Of a stretch of 64,000 nt of DNA, positions 37,586 to 55,916 are shown in pieces (position 1 is the first letter of the stretch; each line of letters begins with the position of its first letter). The stretch spans positions 684,074 to 748,073 of the forward strand of contig NZ_GL538208.1 of assembly GCF_000165735.1 (NCBI RefSeq), read 5' to 3'. The DNA comes from Megasphaera micronuciformis F0359 (lineage in GTDB: Bacteria; Bacillota; Negativicutes; Veillonellales; Megasphaeraceae). The notes under the pieces are model-generated. The model had not been told where the DNA came from, searched no databases, and saw only the letters and a program-made list of their open reading frames with translations. Both the position numbers and the translations under genes were made by a program.

Positions 37586-40179
37586 GAAATACCGCTTCCT
37601 TTCTTGGCTTCACGTTGCAAATCATGCAAAAACGAAATGGCTTCGATAGGGGTCATACTCATAACATCCACATGAAGCAACTTGTCCGTTACGGCATCTG
37701 TAAACAGTCCCGATGACGCATAAGTCGCTTCCTCATCGGGGATCTGCCGCGACGGCACTGCCGCAGCCCCGCCTTCCAATTCTTCCAAAATAACTTCGGC
37801 ACGCTTCAAAAGACCTTCGGGAAGGCCCGCCAAACGAGCTACATGTAAGCCGTAACTGCGATCGGCTCCGCCCGGTATAATACGCCGCAAGAATTTGATG
37901 GACTTGCCCCGTTCTCGAACGGCGACGGTATAGTTCTTCAAAAGACTTGATTCGTCCGCCATGGAAACCAACTCATGATAGTGCGTGGCAAAGAGAGTAA
38001 ATGCGTGAACGTGTTTTAAACAATATTCAATAACCGCCTTGGCAATGGACATACCGTCGAAGGTACTCGTACCTCGGCCGATCTCATCCAAAATCAACAA
38101 ACTGCGGCACGTGGCATGTTTTAAAATATAGGATACTTCCTTCATTTCCGTCATAAACGTACTTTGACCCGTTAAAATATCGTCACTGGCACCGATACGC
38201 GTAAAAATCCTGTCAACAGGGCAAATATCGGCACTCTCGGCAGGGATAAAAGACCCCGTCTGTGCCATTAATATCAAGACTGCCGTCTGACGCATATACG
38301 TCGATTTACCGGCCATATTGGGTCCCGTTATAACAAGAACTTCGTGATCCGTATGATTAAGCGTAACATCATTAGGCACAAAGAGTTCGTTTTTATTATA
38401 TTGCTCAATAATGGGATGACGACCTTCTTCGATGCGAATGACTTCACGGCTGTTTAATGCAGGCCGTACGTAGCGATTCTCCTTGGCACATACGGCCAGG
38501 CTGTACAAGCTGTCCGCTACGGCTACGGCACGAGCCGTTTCCTGCATGGCCGCAATATGGCCGCGAACTTCTTCGCGCAACTGTGTAAACAGTTTATACT
38601 CCAAAGCAGTCAATCGTTCCTGAGAAGTCAATACCTTTACTTCAAAATCTTTCAGTTCCGGAGTAATATACCGTTCCGCGTTGACCAAAGTCTGTTTACG
38701 TACATAATAAGGCGGAATCGGTTTCGTATTGGCGTGGGAGATTTCAAAATAATAGCCGAATACCTTCGTATAGCCGATTTTCAGCTTAATTCCAGTACTT
38801 TCTTTCTCCCGTTCTTCCAAGTCACGTAAAAAGGCATGACTGTTTTCGGATATGCTGCGAATTTCATCCAATTCTTCATTATATCCGTCACGAATGACAC
38901 CGCCGTTACGAATAACCGCAGCCGGTTCTTCCTTAACGGCACGACAAAGCAAATCGTACACGTAAGAATGAACATCCATGCATTCATTCAGTCTTTGTAA
39001 AATAGGTGCTCCCGCTTGTGATAAGATATGTTTTACGTCCGGCAGAATACGTAACGATTCACGCAAAGCCGTCATATCCTTAGGCCCGGCCGTACCCGTG
39101 CCGATGCGTGTCAAAATACGTTCGAAGTCATAAATCTTATCCAACGTATCGCCCAAGTCCTGACGCATAATTTCATGGCGTACCAAATCCTCTACACCGT
39201 CTTGCCGTTCCGTTATATCGTGAAGATTCAACAAAGGGGCTTCCAACCACTTACGCAATAAACGTCCGCCCATAGCCGTCTTCGTCCGGTCCAGCACGTC
39301 GAGAAGAGTTCCCTTGCGGCGACCGTCACGTACGTTCTGCGTAATTTCCAAATGGCGTAGACTCGATACATCAATAAGCATATTGCGTTCTGTCGTCAAA
39401 GGCCTCAACGAGGCGATATGAAAGACGTCGGCCTTCACCGTCTCTTTTACATAGGATAACAAGATACCGATAGTATAGGCCGCTTCCTTTGCCGCCTGAA
39501 AGGCATCTTCATCAAAATAATCGGCACCTGTTCGGGAATAGTCTATATCACCTTGCAGCTCGTAGAGCGTAAAAGCACAATGGTTCAGCCGCTCCGTAGT
39601 GAAACGCCGTAAAGAGGTAATGATTGCCGACTCCTTCGTATATACCACTTCCGCCGGTTCATACAAGGCAAAGATGTCCAAAAGTCGATCTTGAGTTTCG
39701 TCATCTCCGCAGGCCATCCACAGAGCTTCTCCTGTCGTTACGTCCGTCAGTACAAGCTGAATGCCGCCATTTTCTTCCCCTACAGCGGCAATATAGTTAT
39801 TCTTCTTCGACGCCACGGCATGCTCCATCGTCACGGTACCGGGTGTAATGACGCGAATGATTTCTCGCTTCACAAGACCTTTTACAGACTTAGGATCTTC
39901 CATTTGCTCGCAAATGGCAACCTTATAGCCCTTATGAACAAGGCGTTCAATATATGTATCGGCAGAGTGAAAGGGAACGCCGCACATGGGTACGCGTTCC
40001 TTATTGCCGCCGGCACGGCCGGTCAAGGTTAAATCCAATTCACGCGACGCCGTCAAGGCATCGTCAAAAAATAATTCATAAAAATCGCCTAAGCGAAAAA
40101 ACAGCAGTTTATCGGCACATGTCTCCTTGACTTCCAGATACTGCTTCATCATGGGCGTTAACTTCATTTCTTCGGCCAC
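37582..40179 (-). CDS. mutS: DNA mismatch recognition ATPase MutS
   Basis: 865 aa. N-terminal mismatch-recognition domain (MMKQYLEVKE; FFRLGDFYELFF, containing the F-x-E mismatch motif region), Walker A GPNMAGKSTYMRQ near residue 618, and Walker B LILDEIGRGTSTFDG. GTG start at 40179 has GGAGG 6 nt upstream, better placed than for the ATG four codons later; this makes the gene overlap the 3' end of miaB by 71 nt. Confidence 0.96.
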   Translation of the reverse strand: MAEEMKLTPMMKQYLEVKETCADKLLFFRLGDFYELFFDDALTASRELDLTLTGRAGGNKERVPMCGVPFHSADTYIERLVHKGYKVAICEQMEDPKSVKGLVKREIIRVITPGTVTMEHAVASKKNNYIAAVGEENGGIQLVLTDVTTGEALWMACGDDETQDRLLDIFALYEPAEVVYTKESAIITSLRRFTTERLNHCAFTLYELQGDIDYSRTGADYFDEDAFQAAKEAAYTIGILLSYVKETVKADVFHIASLRPLTTERNMLIDVSSLRHLEITQNVRDGRRKGTLLDVLDRTKTAMGGRLLRKWLEAPLLNLHDITERQDGVEDLVRHEIMRQDLGDTLDKIYDFERILTRIGTGTAGPKDMTALRESLRILPDVKHILSQAGAPILQRLNECMDVHSYVYDLLCRAVKEEPAAVIRNGGVIRDGYNEELDEIRSISENSHAFLRDLEEREKESTGIKLKIGYTKVFGYYFEISHANTKPIPPYYVRKQTLVNAERYITPELKDFEVKVLTSQERLTALEYKLFTQLREEVRGHIAAMQETARAVAVADSLYSLAVCAKENRYVRPALNSREVIRIEEGRHPIIEQYNKNELFVPNDVTLNHTDHEVLVITGPNMAGKSTYMRQTAVLILMAQTGSFIPAESADICPVDRIFTRIGASDDILTGQSTFMTEMKEVSYILKHATCRSLLILDEIGRGTSTFDGMSIAKAVIEYCLKHVHAFTLFATHYHELVSMADESSLLKNYTVAVRERGKSIKFLRRIIPGGADRSYGLHVARLAGLPEGLLKRAEVILEELEGGAAAVPSRQIPDEEATYASSGLFTDAVTDKLLHVDVMSMTPIEAISFLHDLQREAKKGSGIS

Positions 40180-41521
40180 AATCTTCCTCCCGTTTCAGGA
40201 CATGACCTTTAAGGACCCAAGTCTGTCCCTTATCCACATGTACTCGTATGGTATCACCGACGGCGCTCGTCCCGTCGTTTTCCCAAATGATCATCTTATT
40301 GCCCCGCGTCCTGCCGAACCAATGATTTTCATCATTTTTCGTAGGTCCTTCGACAATGACTTCATAGTCCTTGCCTTCCATCTCTACGTTATAAGCCAGG
40401 CTGATTTCATTCTGCACATCAGCTAATCGCTTCAAACGTCGACTCTTTTCATCTTGAGGAATCTGATTATCCATAGTCGCTGCCGGCGTTCCCGTACGGG
40501 GTGAATAAATAAATGTATAGGCCATGTCGTAGCGTACGCGCCTCAGCAAGTCGAGAGTCTCTTGAAACATCGCTTCCGTTTCACCGGGAAAGCCGACAAT
40601 AATATCGGTCGTCAAGACGGCTTGAGGCATCTTTTCTCGAATGTACGAGACCAACTCTTCGTAGTGTTCCGTCGTATAGCCGCGATTCATGCGTTTTAAA
40701 AGTTCCGTAGACCCGCTCTGCACAGGCAAATGAATATGGGATACTACCTTCTTGCACTGAGCGATGGCGTCGATCATGGTAAAAGTCATATCCTTCGGAT
40801 GGCTGGTCATATAACGAACCCGTTCAATGCCGTCAATGTCTTCTATAGCATATAAAAGGGCTGAAAAATCTGTACCGTCCTTAAAATCGAGTCCATATGA
40901 ATTGACGTTTTGACCCAGCAGAGTAATTTCCTTATAGCCTTCTTTGGCTAAGTTGCGGATTTCTTCTATAATTTCTTCTAAAGGCCGGCTCACTTCGCGA
41001 CCGCGCACATACGGAACAATACAATACGTACAAAACTTATTGCACCCGTTCATAATGGGAACCCAGGCAAAGAACTTCTGGAATCGCTTCGTCGGTACGG
41101 CGTGGAATATATTGTCTTCCATTTCCGTAGCCAACATGTGGCTTTCCTTCTGTCCCTCTTTGTCCTTGATTAAATCAATGAGCTTATGTATATTATGTGT
41201 GCCGATGACCAGGTCCAAATGAGGAGCCCGCTTAAAGAGGCGATCCTGCCATTCCTGGGCCATGCACCCCGTTACGGCTAAAATCAAATCCTTGTTCCGC
41301 GTCTTCAAATGCTTGAACTCGCCGATTTTCCCCAGTACCTTGTCTTCCGCCGTCTCACGTACACAACACGTATTCATAAGAATGACATCGGCTAACTCGG
41401 GGTCTTCCGTCGGCGTGTATCCCAGCTCTTCCAACTGCCCTGCATAGCGTTCCGAATCGGACTCGTTCATCTGACAACCGTAGGTCATTAAACAATAGTG
41501 CTTACTTGCCAATAAATCCAT
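40109..41521 (-). CDS. miaB: tRNA-2-methylthio-N6-dimethylallyladenosine synthase
   Basis: 470 aa radical SAM methylthiotransferase acting on MiaA-modified tRNA. N-terminal UPF0004 domain with YGCQMNESDSER and NTCCVRETAEDKV, radical SAM cluster CNKFCTYCIVPYVRG, and a C-terminal TRAM domain. The extra 25-residue polar tail is encoded in the overlap with mutS. Heads the operon miaB-mutS-mutL-miaA-rnmV-ksgA. Confidence 0.96.
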   Translation of the reverse strand: MDLLASKHYCLMTYGCQMNESDSERYAGQLEELGYTPTEDPELADVILMNTCCVRETAEDKVLGKIGEFKHLKTRNKDLILAVTGCMAQEWQDRLFKRAPHLDLVIGTHNIHKLIDLIKDKEGQKESHMLATEMEDNIFHAVPTKRFQKFFAWVPIMNGCNKFCTYCIVPYVRGREVSRPLEEIIEEIRNLAKEGYKEITLLGQNVNSYGLDFKDGTDFSALLYAIEDIDGIERVRYMTSHPKDMTFTMIDAIAQCKKVVSHIHLPVQSGSTELLKRMNRGYTTEHYEELVSYIREKMPQAVLTTDIIVGFPGETEAMFQETLDLLRRVRYDMAYTFIYSPRTGTPAATMDNQIPQDEKSRRLKRLADVQNEISLAYNVEMEGKDYEVIVEGPTKNDENHWFGRTRGNKMIIWENDGTSAVGDTIRVHVDKGQTWVLKGHVLKREEDCGRRNEVNAHDEAVSGSQGDMCR

Positions 41522-41774
41522 GTATAGTCTCCGTTACCTTCTTTTTATAATACTTTTAAAATTCGTTTTTACATTTAATGATACCATATTACGGAAGACT
41601 GCGACAGTATGAAAAGAAGGATACTCCGCACTTATGTTACCTTCCACAAATCAAAATAGCCGGGTATACTGCCTTAAATGAAGCGTATATTCTTATACGA
41701 CTCGGAAATCATTACCTAATGCCGTTTAACAATTGTTTTTGCACTATTTATTTCTTTGAACCCTTCCTTTTGTT
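41522..41774. other. Gene-free stretch upstream of miaB
   Basis: AT-rich leader side of miaB. It must contain the miaB promoter, but no convincing -35/-10 pair could be fixed. An 81-codon plus-strand frame crosses it and continues over the small-RNA promoter; its residue content is not protein-like. Confidence 0.5.
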
Positions 41775-41803
41775 TTGCATAAAACCTTTTCATCTGCTAT
41801 ACT
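41775..41803 (+). promoter_or_regulatory. Promoter of the orphan small RNA
   Basis: Plus-strand -35 TTGCAT (41775-41780), exactly 17-bp spacer, -10 TATACT (41798-41803); predicted start near 41810. No protein gene follows on this strand. Confidence 0.65.
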
Positions 41804-41809
41804 GTAACC

Positions 41810-41886
41810 AAAATAATCACTGATTTGGTATGAGCCCGACCAGGGGAATTGCACCCTGTTTGCGGCATACCGGTCGGTGATTTTTT
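41810..41886 (+). ncRNA. Candidate structured small RNA, about 77 nt
   Basis: Begins about 7 nt after the -10 box and ends in a T6 run (41881-41886). Segment GGTATG (41827-41832) can pair with CATACC (41866-41871), and CCGACC (41836-41841) with GGTCGG (41872-41877); the order a-b-a'-b' is that of an H-type pseudoknot, with an extra hairpin AGGG/CCCT (41842-41845/41854-41857) inside. Alternatively 41815-41832 pairs along its length with 41866-41882 to form a 17-bp terminator stem with several G-T wobbles and one bulge. Not a tRNA, 6S, SRP or tmRNA. Function unknown; could be a trans-acting sRNA, possibly related to the published Negativicutes-1 RNA motif (not tested). Confidence 0.55.
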
Positions 41887-42142
41887 ATTTGCATGCGGCT
41901 TTATATTCTTGCCATATTCATAATAGTGGAATGGTTGTTACCCGGAATGATGCGTAAGGCTACGGACGAATACTTCCGCTATTTTTATGTGTGTTGATTT
42001 GACGTAATTTGCAAGAAACTTTGCCTATCCCTTTATCACTGACGGGGTTGCTTCTCATATCTATCCTGATAAACATCCTCTCAAATACTTTCTTGTAAAA
42101 TAAATACGATTTAAAAATATTTATCATATCTTTGGCATACAA
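41887..42142. other. Gene-free stretch between small RNA and patB terminator
   Basis: No coding-like frame; a 60-codon minus-strand frame (41960-42142) has no Shine-Dalgarno or recognisable content. No repeat or insertion-sequence end seen. Confidence 0.5.
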
Positions 42143-42174
42143 AAACCGCCTGTCTCTCGAGAAACAGGCGGTTT
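42143..42174 (-). terminator. Terminator after the PatB-type gene
   Basis: Stem AAACCGCCTGT/ACAGGCGGTTT with a loop of about 10 nt, 9 nt past the stop, T-run on the minus strand. Confidence 0.85.
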
Positions 42175-42182
42175 ACTCTTCT

Positions 42183-43400
42183 TTATGTTCTTTCCTTAAT
42201 TGCCTTTACAATCCGCTTCAGCCCTTCTGCAATGAGGGTCCGAGGCATAGCCAGGTTGAGTCGTATATAGCCCTGTGCATTGTCTACAAAGAGAGCGTCC
42301 CCTCCTTCGAGAAGAACACCGGCTTTGTTGGCGAAGAATTCGGGAATATCTTCTACGTCAGCCAGATAAGCACTTAAGTCTACCCATGCCAGATAGGTGG
42401 CATCGGGAATGACAAAATGTGTTTCCGGCAATTCCCTGTCGAGTGTCTCCTTAACAAAGGCGAAGTTTCCGTCCAAGTAGGTCTTCATTTGATCAAGCCA
42501 TTCCCCGCCTTTTTCATAAGCTGCCTGATGCGCCGCAATGGCTAAGGGATTAACGTTCATAGCGTACGAATTGGTATAGGCAATATACCATTCTTTCAAC
42601 GTTTCATCTCGAATCAGGATTTCCGCAAACATAAGTCCCGCCATATTAAAGCATTTAGAAGCAGAGGTGCAAACAATAAGTTTGTCATAATCGGGCATAA
42701 TTTTAGCCATAGGAATGTGCCGCTTCCCTTGGCGCAGAAGGTCACAATGGATTTCATCGCTAATAATCCAAAGGTTATGTTTTTCTACAATAGCCGCAAC
42801 CTTCTTCAATTCCTCTTCCGTCCATACACGACCGGTCGGATTGTGAGGGTTACACCAAATCAAAAGCTTCGCCATAGGATGTGCGGCCGCCTTTTCCAAA
42901 GCTTCAAAGTCGATTTGCCAAACGCCCTTTTTATCTTTAACCAGACGATTGAAAACAGCCTGTTTTCCGTTGTACGTTAAAGGATGCTTAAAGTATCCGT
43001 AAGCAGGGGTGTTAACAATGGCATATTCGTGGTCCGTCAAAATAAATTCCGTCAACTTATAAAGAGCGGGAATGATACCGAGAGAAAAGCAAAAATCCTT
43101 TCGTTCATAAGTCCAGTCGTACATTTTTTTACTCCACTTGTTATAAGCGTCGTAAAATTCCTGTTCAAAAACCTGACTATAGCCGAGAATTCGCTTATCC
43201 AAGCGTTCTTTTATGGCATCAATAATATGGGGGCACATGGCAAATTCCATATCGGCTACCCACATGCGAATAAATTCTTCGTCCTTAAAAGGGAACTTCT
43301 TTTTTCCTTCAAAATCATGAAAAATATAACCGCGGAATCCGTCCGTATTCATGGCATTTGTATGCCGACGATCGACAATCTCATCAAAATTATACTTCAT
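42183..43400 (-). CDS. MalY/PatB family cystathionine beta-lyase/aminotransferase
   Basis: 405 aa class I/II PLP enzyme. PLP lysine in CTSASKCFNMAGL (about residue 245), NPHNPTGRVWTEEEL and DEIHCDLL are typical of PatB/MalY, which cleave cystathionine or other cysteine S-conjugates. Monocistronic: consensus promoter, Shine-Dalgarno AGGAGG 6 nt before ATG, and own terminator. Could serve methionine metabolism or sulfide release. Confidence 0.9.
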   Translation of the reverse strand: MKYNFDEIVDRRHTNAMNTDGFRGYIFHDFEGKKKFPFKDEEFIRMWVADMEFAMCPHIIDAIKERLDKRILGYSQVFEQEFYDAYNKWSKKMYDWTYERKDFCFSLGIIPALYKLTEFILTDHEYAIVNTPAYGYFKHPLTYNGKQAVFNRLVKDKKGVWQIDFEALEKAAAHPMAKLLIWCNPHNPTGRVWTEEELKKVAAIVEKHNLWIISDEIHCDLLRQGKRHIPMAKIMPDYDKLIVCTSASKCFNMAGLMFAEILIRDETLKEWYIAYTNSYAMNVNPLAIAAHQAAYEKGGEWLDQMKTYLDGNFAFVKETLDRELPETHFVIPDATYLAWVDLSAYLADVEDIPEFFANKAGVLLEGGDALFVDNAQGYIRLNLAMPRTLIAEGLKRIVKAIKERT

Positions 43401-55832: not shown

Positions 55833-55916
55833 GCGAGTGTGGCGGAACGGCAGACGCACCGGACTTAGGATCCGGCGTCTTATGACGTGAGGGTTCAAAT
55901 CCCTCCACTCGCACCA
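55833..55916 (+). tRNA. tRNA-Leu (anticodon UAG)
   Basis: 84 nt with CCA encoded. Acceptor GCGAGTG pairs with CACTCGC; anticodon stem CCGGA/TCCGG with loop CTTAGGA gives anticodon TAG; long variable arm (CGTCTTATGACGT) as in class II tRNAs; T arm GAGGG-TTCAAAT-CCCTC. Confidence 0.98.

Follow-up and report, generated by a model that had tools for sequence, protein, structure and literature searches.

Type III toxin–antitoxin systems (ToxIN, CptIN, and TenpIN) pair a structured RNA with an RNase-like protein of the ToxN family. The RNA is a pseudoknot, and its gene, usually a repeat array, immediately precedes the toxin gene in the same orientation. Among type I systems, the antitoxin RNA SR6 of the B. 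subtilis prophage SPbeta (SR6/yonT) overlaps the 3' end of the toxin (PMC5848175). The anti-sRNAs AgvB and AsxR of E. coli O157 prophages sit in a moron site near PR' and target host sRNAs (PMC4104026). Polyvalent proteins of phages contain MuF_C (PF18819) and LPD3 (PF18798) domains, and MuF-C is assigned to the PBECR (BECR-fold) domains, with a catalytic RNase or an RNA-binding role (PMC5512222, Iyer et al.).

Here, we analyse a 64,000-nt stretch of the Megasphaera micronuciformis F0359 genome (the window), which contains a short unit composed of a promoter, a hairpin, and a U-tract. Sequence comparison indicates that this unit is very probably an orphan copy of a phage-derived antisense small RNA family. 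The domains whose 3' ends carry the unit are those of the MuF_C and LPD3 polyvalent proteins of PMC5512222, and the available part of that paper makes no mention of an antisense RNA ('antisense RNA', 0 occurrences). We found no such RNA described in the open-access papers searched.

Like type I RNAs such as SR6/yonT, as far as the available part of the report goes (PMC5848175), the units are phage-borne, ~100 nt or less in length, and placed antisense over the 3' portion of a toxin-type gene. Unlike SR6/yonT, they lie inside long polyvalent-protein ORFs, their hairpin is partly re-paired between relatives, and orphans without a target gene occur. In contrast to type I systems, there is no small hydrophobic toxin peptide, and the overlapped genes encode MuF_C/LPD3 proteins with long open frames. 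As regards the antisense overlap with a toxin mRNA in type I systems, the predicted RNAs of the nested copies would be antisense to the MuF_C gene; the window genome has no match to MuF_C or LPD3 at E ≤ 0.001. Compared with type III systems as generally described, the family is a candidate for working alike, with a structured RNA and an RNase-like protein partner. However, its RNA is antisense at the 3' end inside the domain gene rather than in upstream repeats, forms a hairpin rather than a pseudoknot, and would have MuF_C (PBECR) rather than a ToxN-family protein as partner. AgvB and AsxR are likewise short sRNAs of prophages whose 3' part is conserved, but differ in site and target, and the available part of the report describes no MuF_C link for them (PMC4104026). 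The nearest kinds are the RNA antitoxins of types I and III. The unit lacks at least one defining feature of each, and we therefore rate it as a new variant rather than a member.

The unit of the window and its fold

The unit spans positions 41775–41886 of the plus strand, in a gap of 661 nt that separates a MiaB-like gene from a PLP aminotransferase gene. An earlier note on this DNA had described a promoter–RNA–terminator unit here, with the neighbouring genes on the other strand. Its TTGCAT-17-TATACT and T6 are exact, both flanking genes are on the minus strand, and a 68-nt hairpin follows the promoter and runs into the T6. This order of a promoter with a ~17-nt spacer, a hairpin, and a U-tract fits the proposed MuF_C-nested antisense RNA family. 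The features are as follows.

40109–41521, minus strand: MiaB-like gene, flank of the gap
41768–41887, minus strand: MuF_C-type coding remnant, antisense to the RNA (54% over 39 aa; one TAA inside; frame of 46 aa)
41775–41780, plus strand: -35 box TTGCAT, read in the sequence; homologues have 17-nt-spacer promoters at the same place
41798–41803, plus strand: -10 box TATACT, with CTGC just before, read in the sequence; spacer to the -35 box, 17 nt
41810–41886, plus strand: predicted small RNA of ~72–77 nt, its start placed from the promoter and its end from the T run
41815–41825, plus strand: outer helix 5' arm, pairing with 41872–41882 (fold and homologue comparison)
41827–41832, plus strand: upper helix 5' arm GGTATG, pairing with CATACC at 41866–41871 (fold and homologue comparison)
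41836–41841, plus strand: CCGACC, read in the sequence
41838–41863, plus strand: conserved core GACCAGGGGAATTGCACCCTGTTTGC, comprising the apical hairpin and internal-loop bases; 23 of 26 bases are the same in the second genomic copy
41843–41846 pairing with 41854–41857, plus strand: apical hairpin with the 7-nt loop AATTGCA (41847–41853)
41872–41877, plus strand: GGTCGG, read in the sequence, directly adjoining CATACC (41866–41871)
41872–41882, plus strand: outer helix 3' arm (fold and homologue comparison)
41881–41886, plus strand: T6, terminator U-tract, read in the sequence
42183–43400, minus strand: PLP aminotransferase gene, flank of the gap

The minimum free energy of the window hairpin is -34.2 kcal/mol, compared with -18.4 ± 3.1 for shuffles (z -5.1; none of 200 as stable). 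A purpose-written scanner passes hairpins of -22 kcal/mol or lower with a promoter score of at least 13.5, thresholds that were chosen after the scores of the window unit were known; the unit is the sole pass among 1260 T-run hairpins scored on both strands of the window, and such a unit appears in none of 200 dinucleotide shuffles of the gap. A generic scan of 901 bases gives 3 promoter-like sites as against 2.5 in shuffles, which is not above chance, and no terminator, its rule allowing simple stems with 3–8 nt loops. The scanner, the fold stability, and the shuffles support the plus-strand unit, with a predicted transcript. Another hairpin (aaaccgcctgt..acaggcggttt, 42143–42174 of the window) lies just 3' of the aminotransferase gene and is probably the terminator of that gene.

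The earlier note had read two interleaved six-base pairings, GGTATG:CATACC and CCGACC:GGTCGG, as a pseudoknot, with a full-length stem as the competing fold. All four segments are present and CATACC and GGTCGG are adjacent, but the best fold of the window RNA is one long nested hairpin, with the apical loop AAUUGCA when homologues are included. In four homologues scored on the structure of the window copy, this hairpin has 89.5% of its cells paired (1 of 500 shuffled-column sets as high) and a covariation score of 0.310, compared with 0.179 in shuffles (4/500 as high); 4 pairs are changed on both sides, compared with 2.5 in shuffles (94/500). In the same four homologues, the interleaved pseudoknot is paired in 67.5% of cells, a value matched by 322 of 500 shuffles, and its second pairing is kept in 58.3%. 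The pseudoknot covariation score of 0.111 is reached by 455/500 shuffles. A free-standing pseudoknot sRNA that switches folds is therefore extremely unlikely, even with both pairings present in the window copy, and we set the interleaved H-type fold aside, its pairing and covariation being no better than those of shuffles.

No Rfam family scores above its gathering threshold for the unit. At E ≤ 10, only STnc240, S15-Flavobacteria, and NsiR1 appear, all far below gathering; the Negativicutes-1 match that had been thought possible falls away, as neither that model nor the cobalamin models appear even at this level. Rfam searches of eight relatives give no match at any unit, and the only gathering-level match in the window is a tRNA-Leu (55833–55916, +). 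A minus-strand cobalamin-like cis-element was dropped because the promoter and U-tract indicate plus-strand transcription.

The unit is not unique, having relatives nested in phage MuF_C genes and a second copy in the same genome. The latter (L002) lies ~136 kb away and closely follows a MetH-like gene, on its downstream side, that encodes pterin- and B12-binding domains. The two copies have in common the core GACCWGGGGAATTGCACCCYRTTTGC (23/26 bases identical), TCTGCTAWACT located 11 nt before AATCAC, and six identical outer pairs; the promoter spacer of L002 is 16 nt, compared with 17 nt in the window unit. Of 19 pairs, 13 are unchanged, 4 are changed on one side, 2 are changed on both sides, and none is broken, and the two-sequence covariation is not above shuffles (129/500). 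A loop-pattern search of the genome gives 40 matches at up to 2 mismatches; eight matches (L012–L019) fetched besides the two units include no further unit. The core is absent at up to 3 mismatches from the other 16 family genomes and from 60 order genomes, and genus-level blastn matches (L004–L007) were judged by eye not to be homologues. A palindrome in another genome of the genus (G007, L021 1480–1560) has a similar GGGG-loop-CCCC-TTTGCGG core, without a U-tract.

Units nested in phage MuF_C and LPD3 genes

A covariance model built from the window unit and L002 and run on 380 class genomes gives matches in 20 of them at E ≤ 0.3, most of which, besides L025, look like chance. On a quick look at sequence and fold, the weak matches L022, L023, L026, L028, L029, L031, L032, and L034–L041 were rejected as plain terminators or chance. 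L025, the best match outside the window genome (E 3e-12), is a unit antisense inside a prophage ORF with MuF_C (PF18819, E 4e-33) and LPD3 domains. The MuF_C domain is confirmed in L025, L060, L089, L090, and L093.

Among 379 class genomes, 23 contain MuF_C, at a total of 28 places, each of which was scanned. At the scanner thresholds, a nested unit composed of promoter, hairpin, and U-tract lies antisense near the 3' end of MuF_C at 22 places, a count that includes a unit ~170 nt further downstream (L079), a hairpin of doubtful register (L073), two copies in one gene (L061 and L082), and two pieces of the domain whose frames are short (L068 and L072). The promoter spacer is 17 nt in 22/22. 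No unit lies on the sense strand of MuF_C loci (90,842 bases). Of the six misses, L071 has a unit visible by eye on which the scanner fails, and is left out of the 22; L077 has a hairpin without a good promoter; L075 and L083 belong to family f21, in which L074 carries the unit; and L080 and L084 are MuF_C matches below the Pfam cut-off. The overlapped ORFs encode MuF_C/LPD3 proteins, with open frames of up to thousands of residues, and the nested units lie deep inside them, far from translation starts. Many MuF_C-nested copies have an AAUUG-type apical loop; nested loops vary nonetheless. A search with the promoter DNA pattern finds 3 stretches in genome contigs (Mitsuokella twice and Pectinatus frisingensis), all with a unit against a long opposite frame, and 0 matches in viral contigs. 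Seven MuF_C loci carry further antisense units elsewhere (L061, L062, L066, L067, L070, L072, and L082), positioned at -420 (L062), +937 (L066), -994 (L067), and -372 (L070) relative to the MuF_C start; these may be associated with LPD3 or with further polyvalent domains.

An element that propagates as DNA, a terminator or palindromic repeat in the manner of REP or MITE elements and with no RNA role, would share with the unit its palindromic form, its patchy distribution, and its tandem copies. Such a repeat is nevertheless very improbable, as the 17-nt-spacer promoter is on the same side in all passing MuF_C sites, all of these are antisense, and promoters are found at several orphans.

A similar unit with other apical loops is present at LPD3 (PF18798) ends, in 23 of 30 loci scanned (one locus per genome; 30 of 56 places among the matches listed). 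The positions of three of the 23, at truncated loci, were calculated by hand, and the spacer of one (L111) is 16 nt; no unit passes at L105, L108, L119, L121, L122, L123, or L125.

Outside bacterial genomes, the nested unit is found in Pasteurella phage Pmp11, E. coli phage PhiR5_2, and three IMG/VR contigs, the last amounting to one new unit, since the L090 protein equals L063 and L091 and L092 are alike. In PhiR12_3, phi296, and phi367, inspection by eye shows a unit whose U-tract is interrupted; the scanner fails on such units (L094–L096). Protein searches of the viral contigs gave three loci in one case and none in two, and one phage record has the L063 domain.

Codon-preserving shuffles and covariation provide evidence of selection on the RNA structure itself. 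In 19 of 31 rows, the hairpin is more stable than in any of 100 codon-preserving shuffles (e.g., -40.0 compared with -20.7 ± 3.3), and the promoter score is reached by no more than 5 of 100 such shuffles in 21 of 31 rows, the site having been preselected as the best one, with no re-optimisation in the shuffles. Four rows are mislocated (L071, L075, L095, and L096), L094 is without a row, and the rows that contain stops (L068, L072, L079, and L083) carry little meaning. Conserved codons of an SIPNE..DLRK motif that fake a promoter are disfavoured because promoters persist over different peptides, namely SIKTE..DLVK, SITKDFTHVN, LIVSEDMKNVK, and ILHPEDIRK.

In an alignment of eight related units, with the structure taken from one of its rows, 10 pairs are changed on both sides, compared with 3.8 ± 1.4 in shuffled columns (0/500 as high), and the covariation score is 0.301, compared with 0.222 (0/500). 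Slid controls reach at most 3 doubly changed pairs, and pair types are no more numerous than in shuffles (20, compared with 20.7). Ten pairwise comparisons of close units contain 13 compensatory pairs, 25 pairs kept by a one-side change, and 15 broken pairs. The viral pair L090/L091 has 4 compensatory, 3 one-side, and 3 broken pairs, with no change in 13 unpaired bases. The nested hairpin is, as far as these alignments indicate, kept partly by compensatory changes. RNAalifold on a mixed E. coli alignment (A7, eight copies) does not recover the outer stem and gives 2 covarying pairs, which we do not count as support.

Orphan copies in host genomes and islands

The minus strand of the window reads as the MuF_C domain end of L025/L042 (tblastn E 3.6e-6), interrupted by the one stop. 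The relative G008 has the same two flanking genes, with 149 nt between the aligned blocks, compared with 618 nt in the window genome, and the element is absent from that gap by sequence and by covariance model. With its AAUUG-type apical loop and nested stem, both kept in relatives, the window unit fits the proposed MuF_C-nested family.

The window orphan could be a remnant, that is, an inert fragment of a decaying prophage MuF_C gene in which the antisense unit is merely not yet erased. The readable domain end with its stop and the longer gap in the window genome are in keeping with such decay. So is a cluster in genome G299, which retains a MuF_C fragment and in which five units checked lie in opposite frames of 110–235 aa. 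We consider a remnant improbable on three counts: L002 has no open frame across the hairpin, yet its stem, core, and promoter remain; tandem units in G299 are promoter plus RNA only; and satellite copies in E. coli have another promoter with the same hairpin.

The G299 cluster contains ten units within 2.4 kb, downstream of ruvX and an unassigned ORF and next to yceG, and the tandem units are three in number, 116–117 bp apart. Units with a different apical loop (G299 L101 6060–6703 and L134) are antisense to a stretch that resembles an LPD3 end by eye; Pfam assigns no family to this ORF. Four more units form a second group near C1:2228 kb of G299. Other stand-alone copies, besides the window unit and L002, are L033 and L027, the latter with a weak hairpin (-15.0). 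L030, which has an opposite frame of 152 aa and lacks a clear promoter, is uncertain as an orphan.

The PhiR5_2 unit matches 342 of 5426 E. coli genomes, and a satellite-copy query matches 117 of 5426. Among 60 matches listed for the latter, 57 lie in unannotated gaps and 3 inside LPD38 genes. Plasmids contain no match for the E. coli unit. The flanks of four E. coli orphans were read, and all four lie just 3' of a ProQ/FinO–PerC gene pair. The yicC–dinD island of E. coli RM10042 (L145) encodes an integrase, a primase, an SSB, and antiterminator Q, and we call it satellite-like because no capsid or packaging gene is annotated beside them. The island's own ProQ/FinO and PerC-type proteins are encoded directly upstream of the orphan RNA. 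Four satellite copies have a TATAAT element of their own and opposite frames of 33–75 aa; one of the four (L100), with a 16-nt spacer, is accepted by the scanner, and the other three have a T4 U-tract.

Possible role of the RNA

The reading that we favour, at close to even confidence, is that the window unit encodes a phage-derived orphan sRNA, an antitoxin or immunity RNA that works in trans against MuF_C-type effectors. In phages and prophages, the sequences show a sigma70-type promoter, a long hairpin, and a U-tract antisense across the 3' end of MuF_C in large phage proteins. From this promoter, an RNA of ~75 nt would be made, with its own hairpin as terminator, and would fold as one long hairpin with a conserved apical loop. 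The RNA may bind and neutralise MuF_C-type effectors (predicted RNases or RNA-binding proteins) in trans, in the manner of an antitoxin. In the phage, it would protect the producer cell, and hosts and satellites would retain single or clustered orphan copies as immunity RNAs. The pairing and, in the AAUUG class, the apical loop are kept in copies with and without the protein gene.

A broader version, which we put forward tentatively and hold somewhat short of an even chance, is that phage effector domains encode, backwards, the RNA that disarms them, and that bacteria and satellites collect orphans as an RNA-based immunity repertoire against phage-delivered effectors, whether as single copies (the window unit, L002, and those of the E. 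coli islands with a ProQ/FinO gene) or as a bank like the ten units of G299. Two observations stand against one RNA for one protein: LPD3 ends carry units with other apical loops, and the loops of MuF_C-nested units vary. The MuF_C places without a unit at threshold (6/28) and the broken pairs in close comparisons stand against the immunity reading itself. An AF2 model (pLDDT 59.6), whose best PDB match (E 0.09) is a toxin–antitoxin complex, weakly supports the BECR fold and is too weak to prove it.

If the immunity reading is right, the coding sequence of phage effector domains, in Negativicutes as well as in phages of Pasteurella and E. coli, doubles as an sRNA gene that is absent from Rfam and from the open-access papers searched. 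The phage polyvalent proteins would gain a predicted RNA partner, making the function of MuF_C and LPD3 testable, and hosts and satellites would be seen to carry orphan copies similar to immunity genes. With the E. coli forms, the question can be taken to K-12.

The main rival to an immunity RNA is a type I-like antisense silencer, which would pair with the MuF_C mRNA and lower effector expression, its orphans silencing incoming phages or helpers in trans. Nested units are complementary to the sense mRNA by construction, and SR6/yonT provides a precedent for an RNA that overlaps a toxin 3' end (PMC5848175, available part). Over the hairpin, E. coli satellite copies share up to 94% identity with the PhiR5_2 unit among the matches listed, and the two orphans of the window genome keep the same outer six pairs. 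The ProQ/FinO genes beside the four satellite copies read point the same way, as the available part of PMC9674577 links this family to terminator hairpins. We nevertheless regard a silencer as rather unlikely: complementarity alone does not need compensatory changes in the stem, and the units are placed deep within long ORFs rather than near translation starts.
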